From Sharpea azabuensis DSM 18934 (GTDB taxonomy: Bacteria; Bacillota_I; Bacilli_A; Erysipelotrichales; Coprobacillaceae), in the NCBI RefSeq assembly GCF_000702165.1, contig NZ_JNKU01000016.1, positions 1 through 48,561 on the forward strand: a stretch of DNA of 48,561 bases, in the 5' to 3' direction. The position numbers were made by a program, and so were the translations under genes. This document shows positions 3,758 to 43,424 of the stretch, piece after piece (the first letter of the stretch is position 1; each line of letters begins with the position of its first letter). The notes beneath the pieces were generated by a model, which was given only the letters and a program-made list of their open reading frames with translations, was not told the origin of the DNA and searched no databases.

Positions 3758-3973
3758 TAAAAAAGTCCTCAGAATCTAAGGACGACTAGCGCGGTACCAC
3801 CTTAGTTCATGAAGACAAAATTCATGCTCTTAGCCTCTTAACGCGAGTAAACGACTTAAGCTTATCACCTAAGCATCTTACAGGTGAGTTCACAGTTATC
3901 CATTACTCATTTCCACCAGCCATGAGTTCTCTATAAATGGCATACCCATTACTATTCCTGATCATCGATTTAT
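3758..3973 (-). promoter_or_regulatory. T-box leader of leuS (Leu specifier)
   Basis: Seen on the minus strand: the T-box core AAGGTGGTACCGCG at 3791-3804, then the terminator hairpin GTCCTTAG-ATT-CTGAGGAC plus T-run at 3758-3783. The specifier-loop context GAA-CTC-ACC is at 3883-3891, with CTC (Leu) at 3886-3888. The start is set about 7 bases after the -10 box. Family knowledge: uncharged tRNA pairs with the specifier and the T-box bulge and stabilises the antiterminator. The pheS leader in this window has the same layout with TTC at the equivalent place. Confidence 0.92.
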
Positions 3974-3979
3974 ACACGT

Positions 3980-17686: not shown

Positions 17687-17760
17687 TGGAGCGGGTGATG
17701 GGAATCGAACCCACGTAGTCAGCTTGGAAGGCTGGAGTTCTACCATTGAACTACACCCGC
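17687..17760 (-). tRNA. tRNA-Gly (TCC)
   Basis: Minus strand GCGGGTG ... anticodon arm CCAGC-CTTCCAA-GCTGG with TCC, T arm GTGGGTTCGATTCCCAT, acceptor CACCCGC-T-CCA. CCA is encoded. Last gene of a six-tRNA operon. Confidence 0.97.
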
Positions 17761-17766
17761 ATAAGA

Positions 17767-17842
17767 TGGTGACTCGCAGGAGATTCGAACTCCTGACCCT
17801 CTGATTAAAAGTCAGATGCTCTACCGACTGAGCTAGCGAGTC
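17767..17842 (-). tRNA. tRNA-Lys (TTT)
   Basis: Minus strand GACTCGC acceptor; anticodon loop CTTTTAA in CTGAC/ATCAG context, giving TTT; T arm AGGAGTTCGAATCTCCT; encoded CCA. Confidence 0.97.
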
Positions 17843-17854
17843 ATGATATAAAAG

Positions 17855-17930
17855 TGGCTGGGCTAGCTGGATTCGAACCAGCGAAATGACAGAGTCAAAG
17901 TCTGTTGCCTTACCGCTTGGCTATAGCCCA
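17855..17930 (-). tRNA. tRNA-Gln (TTG)
   Basis: Minus strand TGGGCTA acceptor; anticodon loop with TTG (CAGAC-TTTGACT-CTG); T arm GCTGGTTCGAATCCAGC; encoded CCA. Confidence 0.96.
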
Positions 17931-17934
17931 AGGA

Positions 17935-18018
17935 TGGTGGGGAGGGACGGATTCGAACCATCGAACCAAAAGGAACTGAGTTACAGTCAGCCGCGTTTAG
18001 CCACTTCGCTACCTCCCC
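17935..18018 (-). tRNA. tRNA-Tyr (GTA)
   Basis: Minus strand GGGGAGG acceptor; anticodon loop CTGTAAC with GTA; long class II variable arm, which explains the 84-base length; T arm with GGTTCGAATCC; encoded CCA. Confidence 0.96.
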
Positions 18019-18024
18019 AGTATA

Positions 18025-18100
<76 letters not shown>

Positions 18101-18111
18101 AAATAAACAAA

Positions 18112-18187
18112 TGGTGGGAGCTAACGGGCTCGAACCGCTGCCCCTCTGCTTGTAAGGCAGACGCTCTCCCAACTGAGCTAAGCTCCC
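18112..18187 (-). tRNA. tRNA-Val (TAC)
   Basis: Minus strand GGGAGCT acceptor; anticodon loop CTTACAA with TAC; T arm with GGTTCGAGCC; encoded CCA. First gene of the operon, 18 bases after the -10 box. Confidence 0.97.
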
Positions 18188-18599: not shown

Positions 18600-18625
18600 G
18601 AAAAAAGTAGGATGCAATCCTACTT
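18600..18625 (-). terminator. Terminator of the SARP-like gene
   Basis: Minus strand AAGTAGGAT-TGC-ATCCTACTT then T-run. The TAG stop codon (18620-18622) lies in the upstream arm. Confidence 0.88.
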
Positions 18626-19795
18626 TGACATTTTCTTGATGTCCTCATAAACATAGGAAATATCAGCTCTATGGTATTTGTCAAGTTCATAGAGCTTCTT
18701 AGTAATGCGTTCCATAATCTTAGGAATATACATTTCACTAGCTTCAATTAAAATCAAATAATGATCTTTTCCTGCCACACTTATACAATCCTCAGAGCGT
18801 AAGCCTGCTAACAATGCATTACGCAGCAAAGACATCGTTGATTCAAGGATACGATCCACCAAATCTTCATTCAGGCCTTTGTTATGTGGTGTCAGTTGCA
18901 CATCAATGACATAGACGTCTTCATTACTACGCTTTATCCTTCTTGCTTCAAGCTGACAAAGTCTTGTAAATTCATCATTGGAACATTCAAAAGCAGTTTC
19001 TTCATTATCTTCAGCTAGTATTTCTTTAATATACGCAAAACCCTGCGTCCTTTTTTTGGCATCTAACAGTTTTGTAAGTTTCTCGCTAGGCTTTATTCCA
19101 AGATTCTTCGCAAAAAGCTTCTCGATTTGAGCATAGTACTTTCTTGCAATATCTTCATGCCCTTCATCCATATAACGTGAAATACCATAATAATATACAC
19201 TCTCATTATATGGATCAATTTTCAAAAATTTCTTATAGATTTCTTCGAACTTATTATCAATCTTATTTTCATAATAATATTTAATTAAGGAAAGCATAAC
19301 AGATAAAGCTTGTGTTTCAAGATATTGGTTCTCAGAATCTATCCAGTCATCCCCAGCAAGCATCGGTAACATTCTCCCCTTATAAAGAGCACTTGCCTTT
19401 TCATAAAATGTATGAACATCCTGCTTATCAGCAAATTTTGCACATTTAAGTGTATCAATGAATTCTTCTGCATCAACCAATACATCAATATTAGGATTCC
19501 AGTAATAAGAGCCTTTGGCATTCAAGATAAATTGCTCATCACCAAAGCTTTTCTTCAAAACACATCTGACCCTATATACCAATGCCTTTAAAGCATTAAT
19601 GGGATCATTAGAATCATGATCATTGAACATAATATCAGCAGTTGTCGTATTGAAGATTTGTTTCTTTCTATTCAATATCAAATACGTCAGTAGTTTTGTG
19701 ATTTGTTTTGACCGATAATCGTGATAAAGCAGTTTTTTTCCATTATATTCGATCTCAAATGATCCAAGAAGACTTACCTTCATTTTGTCGCCCAT
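18620..19795 (-). CDS. SARP/BTAD-type regulator with degenerate GGDEF-like tail
   Basis: 391 residues from ATG 19793-19795, six bases after SD GTGAGG; a GTG at 19807 is part of that SD. N-terminal OmpR-like winged helix (about 1-100, starting MGDKMKVSLLGSFEIEYNGK, with DPINALKALVYRVRCVLKK as the recognition-helix region). Then a BTAD helical-repeat domain (about 105-255: DAEEFIDTL, YKGRMLPML, DPYNESVYYYGISRYM). C-terminal segment (about 285-391) has the secondary-structure pattern of a GGDEF domain, but the signature is AGKDHYLIL, so cyclase activity is not expected. Own promoter and terminator. It lies directly downstream of divIB, so a role in envelope or growth control is conceivable but unproven. 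Confidence 0.78.
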   Translation of the reverse strand: MGDKMKVSLLGSFEIEYNGKKLLYHDYRSKQITKLLTYLILNRKKQIFNTTTADIMFNDHDSNDPINALKALVYRVRCVLKKSFGDEQFILNAKGSYYWNPNIDVLVDAEEFIDTLKCAKFADKQDVHTFYEKASALYKGRMLPMLAGDDWIDSENQYLETQALSVMLSLIKYYYENKIDNKFEEIYKKFLKIDPYNESVYYYGISRYMDEGHEDIARKYYAQIEKLFAKNLGIKPSEKLTKLLDAKKRTQGFAYIKEILAEDNEETAFECSNDEFTRLCQLEARRIKRSNEDVYVIDVQLTPHNKGLNEDLVDRILESTMSLLRNALLAGLRSEDCISVAGKDHYLILIEASEMYIPKIMERITKKLYELDKYHRADISYVYEDIKKMSK

Positions 19796-19819
19796 ATTAT
19801 GCCTCACCTCATGTATTCT

Positions 19820-19874: not shown

Positions 19875-20669
19875 TTACTGACAATTTGTGATATAAATAC
19901 TATCCCCCTCAAAAGAAAAGATACATGCATCACTGTATTCTGTCATATAAGCTTCATAATCAAATTTCTTCTGACTAAGAACCTTACTTATATCATTTAA
20001 TCGAACAATGAGCTGTTTACCATTGTCCATAACAAAGCGGATACTTGTTGGATCAGCTGCTTTTGGAGAAAAAATAACATCGGATATCGAATTTCTTAAA
20101 ATATAGGGTAATTGAATATATTGATCTGCAAAGGTCTGAATATGTTCCAAACTATCAAATGACATAAGACGTGGTGTTGATTCAAGCTTTTTTATAAAGT
20201 TGACATTGCTAACTTCTTCTACATGCGCCAGCTCATCTATGACATAGGTCTTATTTTGGAAAATTGCATAGGCAACAGGCTTAGCTTCCTGTATTTCAAT
20301 ACGCAAGCCTCCTGCAATTGTCTTGCTGACATGACATTTCTTGATCAGAGCATGTTTTTTAAGTTTGTTTTCAATATTCTTTGTACTTGTAAATAAGTAA
20401 TATCCAGATGTTTCTTTTTGAATGGATGCTTTTACTTCATCTGCTTTTAAATTTACAAGACCTTTAACTTGTATAGACTGAATTTTTGATACGGGGCTAA
20501 CAAAGTAAACAACAATAAGTCCAATAATAATACAGCTTATCAATAAATGACGACGTCTTCTGGCCTTTTTCGCTTTTACTTCAGCAAGATACTGCTTACG
20601 AGGATCATCATCATATTCATTATAATGAACTGCTGAAATTCTCGTTTTTCTTCTCTTGTGCTTACTCAT
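19875..20669 (-). CDS. divIB: Cell division protein DivIB/FtsQ
   Basis: 264 residues. A highly basic cytoplasmic tail (1-41, ending KKARRRRH), one membrane helix (42-58), then a POTRA domain (about 62-132: IQSIQVKGLVNLKADEVKAS) and the beta domain. Family knowledge: it forms the DivIB-FtsL-DivIC subcomplex at the septum that activates FtsW/PBP2B synthesis. It is the last gene of the dcw unit, three bases after murB, and is followed by the separately promoted SARP-like gene. Confidence 0.93.
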   Translation of the reverse strand: MSKHKRRKTRISAVHYNEYDDDPRKQYLAEVKAKKARRRRHLLISCIIIGLIVVYFVSPVSKIQSIQVKGLVNLKADEVKASIQKETSGYYLFTSTKNIENKLKKHALIKKCHVSKTIAGGLRIEIQEAKPVAYAIFQNKTYVIDELAHVEEVSNVNFIKKLESTPRLMSFDSLEHIQTFADQYIQLPYILRNSISDVIFSPKAADPTSIRFVMDNGKQLIVRLNDISKVLSQKKFDYEAYMTEYSDACIFSFEGDSIYITNCQ

Positions 20670-20672
20670 AAG

Positions 20673-21584
20673 CTACTCCCAATTGACTAATATGACTTCT
20701 TTATGTAATTTCACACCAAACTGATCTTCAACTTTAGCTTGTACTAAATGAATAAGATCAAGAATATCTTTTGCTGAAGCATAGCCATTATTGACAATAA
20801 AATTCGAATGCTTAGGTGACACCTGCGCACCACCTATTTCAAATCCTCTTAAGCCTGCTTCATCAATATACTGCCAGGCCGACTTTCCTTCAGGATTACG
20901 GAATACAGAACCAGCACAGGCAAAATTCCAAGGTTGCGATGTCATGCGTCGTTCCTTACGTTTATCAAGCACGCTCTTGATAGCTGCTGGATCTTTGATT
21001 GTCATTTCAAATGTTGCATCAATAAGAATCCATTCTTTATGTTTCTGCAAGATGGATTGACGATAGCCAAATGCCATTTCTTCCTTATTGAGAATCATTA
21101 ATTCATTATTTTCATTTAGAATTGTTGCTTCCTTAAACACATCAGCAATACAGTATTTATACGCGCCAGCATTCATATAAAGGCCACCGCCCATAGCCCC
21201 AGGAATACCACCCATAAATTCAAAGCCTGATAAGCCAAGTTTAGCAGCCTGATAGCTAAGTGCAATCATGCTGACACCAGCCTGTGCCTTAATAATATTC
21301 CCATTGACCTGATACTGATTAAAGCCATTTAACGAGATAATGATACCTTCATATTCACGATCACTAAATAATAAATCACTACCTCTACCAATAACCATAT
21401 GTCTAATATGATTCTTTCTCACAAACTCCAAAAGTCTTTTTAAAGCTTCCATATCCTTTACTTCAATAAAGAAGCGCGCAGGACCACCCACTTTATAAGT
21501 CGTATGCTTATACATTGGTTCATTTTCTACAACCTTGCCAACATCATTATCTCTTAGAAATTCTTTTACCAGCATTTCATCCAT
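20673..21584 (-). CDS. murB: UDP-N-acetylenolpyruvoylglucosamine reductase
   Basis: 303 residues, type II MurB (Bacillus-like, without the C-terminal insertion of type I). It is a flavoprotein that reduces UDP-GlcNAc-enolpyruvate to UDP-MurNAc with NADPH. Seen: KVGGPARFF, GRGSDLLFSD (FAD loop), GIPGAMGGGLYMNAGAY, FGYRQS, and ACAGSVFRNPEG carrying the active-site Ser. The C-terminal GFEIGGAQVSPKHSNFIVN is the family hallmark. One base separates it from the murG stop, so the genes are co-translated. Its position between murG and divIB matches Bacillus. Confidence 0.97.
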   Translation of the reverse strand: MDEMLVKEFLRDNDVGKVVENEPMYKHTTYKVGGPARFFIEVKDMEALKRLLEFVRKNHIRHMVIGRGSDLLFSDREYEGIIISLNGFNQYQVNGNIIKAQAGVSMIALSYQAAKLGLSGFEFMGGIPGAMGGGLYMNAGAYKYCIADVFKEATILNENNELMILNKEEMAFGYRQSILQKHKEWILIDATFEMTIKDPAAIKSVLDKRKERRMTSQPWNFACAGSVFRNPEGKSAWQYIDEAGLRGFEIGGAQVSPKHSNFIVNNGYASAKDILDLIHLVQAKVEDQFGVKLHKEVILVNWE

Positions 21585-21585
21585 A

Positions 21586-22671
21586 TCACTTTTCCACCAA
21601 TCTTAAAATTTCTTGATAAATATCACGACATGCATTTGGCTTGCCAAGTTTGCTTGCTGCCTCTTTCAATGCATACTGCTTTGCCTTATCATTCATAATC
21701 TGATCAATTGCCTTCACAAGACGATCACCATCCAAATCTTTTTCAAGAATCATTTCGCAAGCACCTTGATCACAAAGCTCACGTGCATTATATTCCTGAT
21801 GATTCGCAACAACATAAGGAGAAGGAATGAGTATTGCAGGTGTACCTAAAGACGTAATTTCTGCAAGAGTCGTTGCTCCCGCACGGCTGACTGCTAAATC
21901 ACTTGAAGCAAGGACACTTGGCATATCATCAATATAAGGAACAATATGAATGGATGCATTTAATGGCCCGCACATTTCCATCATCTCATCAAAATGTGTC
22001 TTGCCTGTAGCATAAATGACATCATATGGCGCATTTTCCATCTTTTTAAGGGCATCAGCCATGGCTTTATTAATGGATGCTGATCCCAATGATCCCATGA
22101 CAATAACAACCACCTTGCGATCAAGATCAATATGATAGATATCATGAACATCTTTTAACACTTTATTATGTACTGTTGAAGCACGTGGATTACCGAGCAA
22201 TTTTGTCTTTTCTTTTGGAAAGCTCTCCAATGCTTTTTCATAACAGCAAATTATTTCATCAACCTTATTAATGAGGATTTTGTTTGTCAAACCAATGATG
22301 GAATTCTGTTCATGAATCATTGTCTTAATATGCTTTTGGCTTGCCGCTAGAACAATGGATGCACTAGGATAACCACCAAAACCAATGACAATATCCGGCT
22401 TAAATTCTTTCAATATTTTCTTACTCGTAGATAATGATTTTAAGAATAAGAAGGCATTTTTTGCCTTTTGCAAAGGATTTCCAACCATTCCTTTTACATG
22501 CAGTCCTCTATAGGCATAGCCAAGCTGAGGTACAACCTCACTTTCAAGACGGTCCGTTGTTCCAACAAAAAGAAACTCAGAACTTGGATCCTGTTCCTTT
22601 ATATAGTCCACTAACGCCAAAGCAGGATAAAGATGTCCACCTGTTCCTCCTGCACTTACAATTATTCTCAC
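21586..22671 (-). CDS. murG: UDP-GlcNAc:lipid I GlcNAc transferase
   Basis: 361 residues, normal for MurG, with a GTG start (22669-22671) and SD GGAGG. It makes lipid II on the inner membrane face by adding GlcNAc to lipid I. Seen: GGTGGH at 8-13 (lipid/phosphate loop), GFGGYPS near 96, HEQNSIIG, and the UDP-GlcNAc-binding SRAGATTLAEITSLGTPAIL with NARELCDQGAC. It is immediately preceded by a hairpin plus T-run that overlaps the murD end, so its transcription may depend on read-through. Confidence 0.97.
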   Translation of the reverse strand: MRIIVSAGGTGGHLYPALALVDYIKEQDPSSEFLFVGTTDRLESEVVPQLGYAYRGLHVKGMVGNPLQKAKNAFLFLKSLSTSKKILKEFKPDIVIGFGGYPSASIVLAASQKHIKTMIHEQNSIIGLTNKILINKVDEIICCYEKALESFPKEKTKLLGNPRASTVHNKVLKDVHDIYHIDLDRKVVVIVMGSLGSASINKAMADALKKMENAPYDVIYATGKTHFDEMMEMCGPLNASIHIVPYIDDMPSVLASSDLAVSRAGATTLAEITSLGTPAILIPSPYVVANHQEYNARELCDQGACEMILEKDLDGDRLVKAIDQIMNDKAKQYALKEAASKLGKPNACRDIYQEILRLVEK

Positions 22672-22683
22672 AGTATACTCCTC

Positions 22684-22712
22684 CTTAAAAAAAGCAGCTA
22701 GTTTAGCTGCTT
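22684..22712 (-). terminator. Strong intrinsic terminator/attenuator between murD and murG
   Basis: Minus strand AAAGCAGCTA-AAC-TAGCTGCTTT, a perfect 10-bp stem with a 3-base loop, followed by more T (seven in a row). The TAG stop of murD lies in the downstream arm and the murG SD starts two bases after the T-run. Confidence 0.8.
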
Positions 22713-24041
22713 TACGATTTCCTTAAACATTTCACCACGTTCTTCCATATTATGGAATTCATCGAATGAACTTGTTGATGGTGAAAGCAATACAATATCG
22801 CCATTTTCAGCAATCTCATAGGCTTTCATGATAGCATCTTTCATATGTTTTTCACAGTATGTATGAGGATGATGCATGTCTTTTGCGAAACGTTCACCAG
22901 CTTCACCGAAAGTTATTAATGCCTTAATTGAATCATTATATTGAGCAACATCATCGAGCGGTAAACCCTTTTCATGACCACCCATTAAAAGGATGACCGG
23001 CTTTTCAAAAGCCTTAACAGCAATGACTGTTGCATCCGTATTTGTACCTTTTGAGTCATTATAATACTGTACACCATTAACTGTTGTAACATACTCAATA
23101 CGATGTTCAACACCAGGGAATTCAGCAATACCATCATGAATCTCTTTAAGGCTTAACCCTCGATGAGCTAAGACAATAATAGCAACCATAATATTAGCAA
23201 CATTATGCAAACCAACAATCTTGATTTCATCACGGTCAATGACCTTTTCACCATGATAATAGATTGTTCTATCTTTCAGCATACAATCCGCATTTTGCAT
23301 TAATGAGAATGTCTCAATTGTACTTGGGATTGGAAAGCGTCCTGTATAAGTTTTTAAGTTTTCATCATCAAGATTGAGAATATAGAGATCATTTGCATCC
23401 TGATTCTCATAGATGCGCATCTTACTTGCATAATATTCATCAAGTGAATCCATATAATCAAGATGATCAGGTGTTAAATTTAAAACAGAAGCAATCTCTG
23501 GATGAAATTGATCAATATCTAGTAACTGGAAATTACTCATTTCAATGATAACTTCGTGCATGCTTTCCTCATATAGCTTGTAATCCATCACTACATCACA
23601 ATAAGGAATACCATAATTACCACAGATATGAACATTCTTATGATATTGATTTAAAATATCATAGATGAGCTTAACTGTTGTTGTTTTGCCATTTGTTCCT
23701 GTAATTGCAATATAGTGTTGTTTTTTAGCAACTTGATAGGCAAGCTCTATTTCTGTATAGACAGGAATGCCACGTTCCTTTAAACGCAGGATAAATGGCT
23801 TATGGTAGTTGATGCCAGGATTCTTAATCGCTAAGTCATAGTCGCCTTCAACAACCTCATCGACATGACCAGAGATGACTTGAATGCCACGTTTCTGATA
23901 CTCCTCGACACCTTCAATATCTTCAAGCTTCTTTGATTCACTAATCGTAATCTGTGCACCAAAATGTTCTAGCAAGCGCACTGCTGCCTTACCACTTTTA
24001 GCAAGCCCTAAGACAAGCACTTTTTTATTCTTGAGATCCAT
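22698..24041 (-). CDS. murD: UDP-MurNAc-L-Ala:D-Glu ligase
   Basis: 447 residues, usual for MurD. It adds D-Glu to UDP-MurNAc-L-Ala with ATP. Seen: N-terminal Rossmann-like domain (VLVLGLAKSGKAA at 8-20), ATP P-loop GTNGKTTT at 115-122, the Mg/carbamoyl-Lys region LNLTPDHLDYM, and the C-terminal NDSKGTNTDATVIAVKAF and LSPSTSSFDEF motifs. The start directly follows the mraY stop (TAAATG). The 3' end is embedded in the terminator-like hairpin before murG. Confidence 0.97.
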   Translation of the reverse strand: MDLKNKKVLVLGLAKSGKAAVRLLEHFGAQITISESKKLEDIEGVEEYQKRGIQVISGHVDEVVEGDYDLAIKNPGINYHKPFILRLKERGIPVYTEIELAYQVAKKQHYIAITGTNGKTTTVKLIYDILNQYHKNVHICGNYGIPYCDVVMDYKLYEESMHEVIIEMSNFQLLDIDQFHPEIASVLNLTPDHLDYMDSLDEYYASKMRIYENQDANDLYILNLDDENLKTYTGRFPIPSTIETFSLMQNADCMLKDRTIYYHGEKVIDRDEIKIVGLHNVANIMVAIIVLAHRGLSLKEIHDGIAEFPGVEHRIEYVTTVNGVQYYNDSKGTNTDATVIAVKAFEKPVILLMGGHEKGLPLDDVAQYNDSIKALITFGEAGERFAKDMHHPHTYCEKHMKDAIMKAYEIAENGDIVLLSPSTSSFDEFHNMEERGEMFKEIVKQLN

Positions 24042-28971: not shown

Positions 28972-29033
28972 TAAAAAAGTCTATTCACATATATCATGCA
29001 AATAGACAAAAAAAGAGTGGCGCAAAGCCACTC
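28972..29033 (-). terminator. Double terminator after rpmF
   Basis: Minus strand, first GAGTGGC-TTTGC-GCCACTC plus T7 (29008-29033), then GTCTATT...AATAGAC plus T6 (28972-29008). They isolate the dcw promoter from rpmF transcription. Confidence 0.85.
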
Positions 29034-35495: not shown

Positions 35496-35707
35496 AAAAA
35501 AGTCGCTCCAGCTAGGAACGACTGATATCGCGGTACCATCCTAATTCATGTCAATAGACATGCTCTTGATTGACTTTAACGCAGTTTCACGGCGAGGATT
35601 GGTCGCTCTCCAAGATGAATTCAGTAATCTATCTCATAGAAGATTTCCACCAGCCTCTTCCTCTCTGTACGCCTTTAATTACTTACTACTTCTCTTCATC
35701 GATTTAT
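35496..35707 (-). promoter_or_regulatory. T-box leader of pheST (Phe specifier)
   Basis: Minus strand: specifier context GAA-TTC-ATC at 35614-35622, with TTC (Phe) at 35617-35619; T-box core TTAGGATGGTACCGCG (35529-35544); and terminator AGTCG(T)TCC-TAGCT-GGA(G)CGACT plus T-run (35496-35523). The layout matches the leuS leader in this window. Confidence 0.92.
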
Positions 35708-35713
35708 GTGACT

Positions 35714-43263: not shown

Positions 43264-43288
43264 AAAAGCCACCTCCATTGCTTAACAA

Positions 43289-43424
43289 TAAAAAAGCAGG
43301 TGCATAAGCACCCGCATAAACATCCCAAAGAATTAATACATTAATATCTTCAGTGACATTTGCCTACCAACATCCATCAGTCAGGCGAGAAGCGAGCACT
43401 TCTTCTTTCCACTACTTTATTTAC
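43289..43424 (-). promoter_or_regulatory. L20-type leader with terminator before infC
   Basis: About 135 bases of structured 5' UTR ending in GCGGGTGC-TTAT-GCACCTGC plus T6 (minus strand, 43289-43315). Position, operon and terminator agree with the L20-responsive leader of Firmicutes. The internal L20-binding pseudoknot was not folded, so the assignment rests on context. Confidence 0.75.

Follow-up and report, generated by a model that had tools for sequence, protein, structure and literature searches.

Internal terminators of the dcw cluster are already on record in the Bacillus cereus group (PMC3762067), where the predicted sites, as that paper describes them, lie between mur and fts genes rather than between two mur genes, and where RNA coverage in B. 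anthracis is reported to break at the predicted terminators with one exception (PMC3762067). In B. subtilis, terminators are described as sitting just a few nucleotides downstream of stop codons (PMC7858274), and the gene order murD-spoVE-murG is reported together with an internal sigma-E start before spoVE-murG (PMC1925097). The window analysed here, a stretch of 48,561 nt from Sharpea azabuensis DSM 18934 (NZ_JNKU01000016.1), holds a dcw cluster with the minus-strand order mraZ, rsmH, ftsL, pbpB, mraY, murD, murG, murB, divIB, and a hairpin with a T tract stands at the murD-murG junction. Since the dcw genes lie on the minus strand, the putative terminator would have the same orientation; the original prediction had left its strand unstated. 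The features of the site are as follows.

22698-24041, minus strand: murD (TIGR01087, 386.7 bits against a cut-off of 211.95)
21586-22671, minus strand: murG, GTG start (TIGR01133, 282.8 bits against a cut-off of 250.25)
20673-21584, minus strand: murB, 3′ of the putative terminator (TIGR00179 and NF010480, above cut-off)
19875-20669, minus strand: divIB/ftsQ-like gene, 3′ of the putative terminator (cluster position and a weak NF004039 FtsQ match of 37.5 bits, under the cut-off of 353)
22691-22713, minus strand: putative terminator hairpin (fold, score and shuffles; core kept in loci L054, L055 and L056)
22713-22704, 22703-22701 and 22700-22691, minus strand: 5′ arm of the hairpin (murD coding), loop AAC and 3′ arm
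22687-22693, minus strand: T7 tract, its first three T also paired in the stem (sequence read directly)
22678-22686, minus strand: murG Shine-Dalgarno sequence AAGGAGGAG, adjoining the T run (sequence read directly)
22828-22855, minus strand: candidate promoter in murD, GTGAAA-16-TATCAT with TG before the -10 (promoter score and synonymous conservation)

Read on the minus strand, the 3′ end of murD runs AAAGCAGCTA-AAC-TAGCTGCTTT and is followed by TTTT, AAGGAGGAG, TATACT and the murG GTG. The elements first predicted are all present: a perfect 10-bp stem, a 3-base loop, T7 (four T after the full stem) and an overlap with the murD stop codon TAG (22700..22698), with which the 3′ arm opens. The predicted placement at 22684-22712 is right for the hairpin and T7, except that the stem reaches one base further, to 22713, and the two-base distance from the T run to the Shine-Dalgarno sequence is borne out by its GGAGG core, AAGGAGG (22686..22680) following the T run directly. 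The murG GTG lies 26 nt past the murD stop, compared with gaps of 0-3 nt at mraY-murD, murG-murB and murB-divIB. This wider gap, with the Shine-Dalgarno sequence just outside the stem, would suit an RNA-processing or 3′-end-protecting stem, or a spacer uncoupling murG translation from murD, but we regard such roles as improbable given that T7 directly after the stem fits termination better and that similar hairpin-T tracts are found at murD ends with no close downstream gene.

Without its three A-U pairs, the stem comprises 7 bp with 4 GC pairs, followed by T7, and has a terminator score of 19.7 (d'Aubenton-Carafa-type formula); a first, stricter terminator scan did not list the site because the full stem has just four T behind it. 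Folding 61 nt of the plus strand (the complement) gave the stem alone (z = -3.38), and the overall stability of a 91-nt sense-strand fold was ordinary (z = -0.04). None of 5,000 dinucleotide shuffles of a 76-nt segment reached 19.7, and four scored above 0. A chance inverted repeat, for which one might cite the shortness of the stem and the 65 of 5,000 shuffles that hold some qualifying hairpin, is extremely improbable and was ruled out by the shuffled scores and by the conservation of the hairpin in three genera. In a background sample consisting of the window and 20 stretches of 20 kb (gene calls approximate, from our own ORF script), 14 of 192 same-strand junctions with gaps of at most 60 nt scored above 0, murD-murG ranking third, and shuffled versions of the 192 junctions gave no score above 0 in any of 20 sets; at convergent gene ends, 5/66 scored as high as the murD-murG site. 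Hairpin terminators thus occur at about 7% of the short junctions of this genome, far above chance, and the murD-murG site is a strong one.

No further hairpin was found in a scan of the junctions from mraZ to divIB. Two consecutive terminator-like hairpins lie at 28979-29033 (minus strand), upstream of an mraZ promoter-like site at 28947-28919, and the gene after divIB (18620-19807, minus strand; BTAD domain PF03704, 37.6 bits; no NCBIfam match) is followed by a strong hairpin with a T tract (18604-18626). Rfam at gathering score gave nine matches in the window and none at 22650-22740, so a known riboswitch or leader at the site was rejected. Elsewhere in the window there are two T-box leaders and one L20 leader (3775-3974, 35511-35708 and 43282-43413, minus strand) and a cluster of six tRNA genes (17690-18187, minus strand).

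The nearest relative genome (G001) has a murG 93% identical to that of S. azabuensis, as has the Sharpea porci record. A core, AAGCAGCT..GCTGCTTTTT, is found at the murD-murG junction of S. porci (L054), Eggerthia (L055) and a further genus represented by genome G009 (L056), with varying loops and stop codons; the Eggerthia junction is identical in L055 and L002. Any match to the hairpin pattern was found in 13 of 43 family genomes, and the four genomes that carry the hairpin at this junction, from three genera (G000, G001, G020 and G009), each have a single occurrence of the pattern, always at murD-murG. Between S. azabuensis and S. porci the stem is identical and the one difference falls in the loop. 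Only the stop codon of the 3′ arm belongs to the murD reading frame, so coding constraint cannot account for the conservation of this arm. Compensatory changes in the core were absent across the relatives; the support thus comes from the fact that an arm under no coding constraint is conserved, and not from covariation. Absence of the hairpin from close relatives had been named as a point against the site, and on this the outcome is divided: S. porci, Eggerthia and G009 retain it, and four genomes of the same clade (G017, G025, G016 and G011) do not have it. With structure, score and conservation across three genera in agreement, the terminator reading of the original prediction stands, and the hairpin with T7 is best read as an intrinsic terminator, a well-supported assignment from sequence.

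The ends of murD were read in 40 of the 43 family genomes, G032, G014 and G062 being dropped as they hold no whole murD. In nine of the 40, murG adjoins murD (≤53 nt), with the hairpin in four and none in five (G017, G025, G016, G011 and G005). In the other 31, murG is not next to murD; a hairpin with a T run was found under strict criteria at 23 of these 31 murD ends, 21 of the 23 scoring above 0, and a relaxed scan recovered two of the remaining eight. The original prediction called this junction plain in most Firmicutes; within the family, murG is usually not adjacent to murD, and a terminator-like hairpin at the end of murD is the common state. In the MurD tree, a single clade (support 100/99) takes in eight of the nine adjacent genomes, with G017 and G025 nested beside G009 (support 100/95), so the hairpin was either lost in G017 and G025 or gained twice.

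In relatives, murG is preceded by a SEDS gene, for which the SpoVE model TIGR02615 scored best in 4/4 tested cases and over its cut-off in one; FtsW, at first a candidate for the gene between murD and murG, was replaced by SpoVE on these scores. The two SEDS genes of Sharpea share about 30% identity with the SpoVE-type gene of the relatives. In the sister family, murD was not found within reach in the 20 murG loci fetched, and two of these (L156 and L157) have a SpoVE-type gene upstream of murG. SpoIVA and Spo0A_C were both without an over-cut-off match in all nine genomes in which murG adjoins murD, and one or the other was present in all 31 other genomes (both in 27). Since the two sporulation markers are missing together only where murG adjoins murD, spoVE was probably lost with sporulation, and this loss probably placed the murD terminator against murG. 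We caution that eight of the nine adjacent genomes belong to one clade, so that the correlation with sporulation amounts to one or two independent events.

In six genomes (G004, G063, G065, G018, G033 and G030), spoVE is split at one codon position, with codons 1 to ~330 on the murD side and ~325-356 before murG (L176:1870-3575, L178:5023-12723, L180:1302-3034, L184:1898-3688, L177:3519-4508 and L179:1354-2349). Spo0A is present in all of the first five. The distance between the two pieces is 6.6 kb in G033, 35 kb in G063 and 47 kb in G004, where their orientations are opposite. The two edges have ACAGG or a longer sequence in common, and in the four scanned cases (of five genomes) the 3′ piece lies beside an ORF carrying Resolvase, Recombinase and zinc-ribbon domains. 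The arrangement looks like a skin-type intervening element; our literature search on such elements found none in spoVE.

Where murD is not adjacent, murG has a promoter-like site of its own, TATAAT or TATACT ending 18-34 nt before murG in 22/22 loci (L030, L031 and L033-L052, which cover 21 of the 31 non-adjacent genomes, and G014). G009 carries TTGAGA-16-TACAAT between terminator and murG, and no promoter-like site was found in the murD-murG gap of Sharpea (26 nt) or Eggerthia. The TATACT just before the murG GTG was rejected as a promoter, having no -35 and no conservation in S. porci. In these two genera murG-murB-divIB would thus need either read-through or a promoter inside murD.

It is plausible, though somewhat less likely than not, that the terminator is efficient and that murG-murB-divIB has its own promoter in the last 180 nt of murD, at a candidate extended -10, TGCTAT(C/T)AT, near 22828; the hairpin would then separate two units and set no ratio. 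Between the two Sharpea species, synonymous identity in the last 60 codons of murD is 48/56, against 1553/2437 pooled, among the highest for any window of that length across seven dcw genes (the maximum, 49/57, starts one codon earlier), and the candidate falls within this most conserved stretch. Shuffles reached the murD value in 2/5,000 cases for gene ends but reached the maximum anywhere in 337/5,000, so the peak is not significant if searched for anywhere; it hints at a hidden promoter. The promoter-like sites of the relatives and the internal sigma-E promoter reported for B. subtilis spoVE-murG (PMC1925097) point the same way, as does TTGATA-17-TATAAT in Eggerthia murD, 257 nt before murG, which scores 13.4 against a coding-bin maximum of 12.5, but whose TATAAT, judged by position, falls on Tyr-Asn codons. 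In Sharpea murD itself, the best site reaches 9.7, a value within the coding background range of 5.2-12.5 (28 window bins), and the -35 and spacing of the candidate differ in S. porci, which speaks against such a promoter.

An alternative interpretation, which we hold to be plausible but somewhat doubtful, is that murG has no promoter and that a fixed fraction of read-through sets murG-murB-divIB below the upstream genes. This is the view of the original prediction, under which the hairpin may set the ratio of lipid II to earlier steps. The promoter-free gap, the lone hairpin among the dcw junctions and a stem kept unchanged in both Sharpea species are consistent with such a partial terminator, but the score is high, unlike that of a weak site, and the four same-clade genomes without the hairpin argue that there is no conserved need for this expression ratio. 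Far less likely, in our view, is that an old terminator was co-opted after spoVE loss as a translation-sensing switch for read-through into murG. Because the 3′ arm begins with the murD stop codon, a ribosome close behind the polymerase at that stop could mask the hairpin and permit read-through, and a lagging ribosome would allow termination; murG-murB-divIB output would then track murD translation.

The explanation that we favour, and think likely, is that the hairpin with T7 works as a murD-end terminator kept after the loss of spoVE and that murG is fed by read-through, by a promoter within murD, or by both. In this family, murD would ordinarily close the first dcw transcription unit and be followed by a terminator, with spoVE next and then murG-murB-divIB as a unit under its own promoter. 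The non-sporulating clade to which Sharpea belongs would have lost spoVE, so that murG became the gene after murD; Sharpea, Eggerthia and G009 would have retained the terminator and G017 and G025 would have lost it. In Sharpea, murG-murB-divIB would be supplied through the terminator, from the 3′ end of murD, or both. Against this explanation, parsimony ties three losses with a loss, a regain and a further loss, and so does not decide for direct descent of the hairpin, and the arm sequences differ outside the genera of Sharpea, Eggerthia and G009. The gene products of murG and murB are expected to be essential, and a strong terminator with no promoter before such genes is puzzling unless the terminator is leaky or a promoter is hidden. 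Operon fusion after gene loss can leave a terminator before probably essential genes, and the clade presents alternative outcomes, its genomes having retained both terminator and promoter, the terminator alone, or neither. This makes a natural series in which to test how an internal terminator of a cell-wall cluster is tolerated or exploited.

Compared with the stop-proximal intrinsic terminators of Firmicutes, the Sharpea site likewise has a GC-containing stem, a short loop and a T run within a few nucleotides of the stop codon, but here another start codon on the same strand comes just 26 nt later, and the interval holds no promoter-like site. The B. subtilis arrangement, in which spoVE separates murD from murG and an internal start is reported, resembles that of Sharpea's relatives, whereas Sharpea itself has no spoVE. 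As described for the B. cereus group, the putative terminator lies within the dcw cluster; in contrast to the sites described there, it is flanked by two mur genes, murD and murG, a position that would be explained if spoVE once lay between them.
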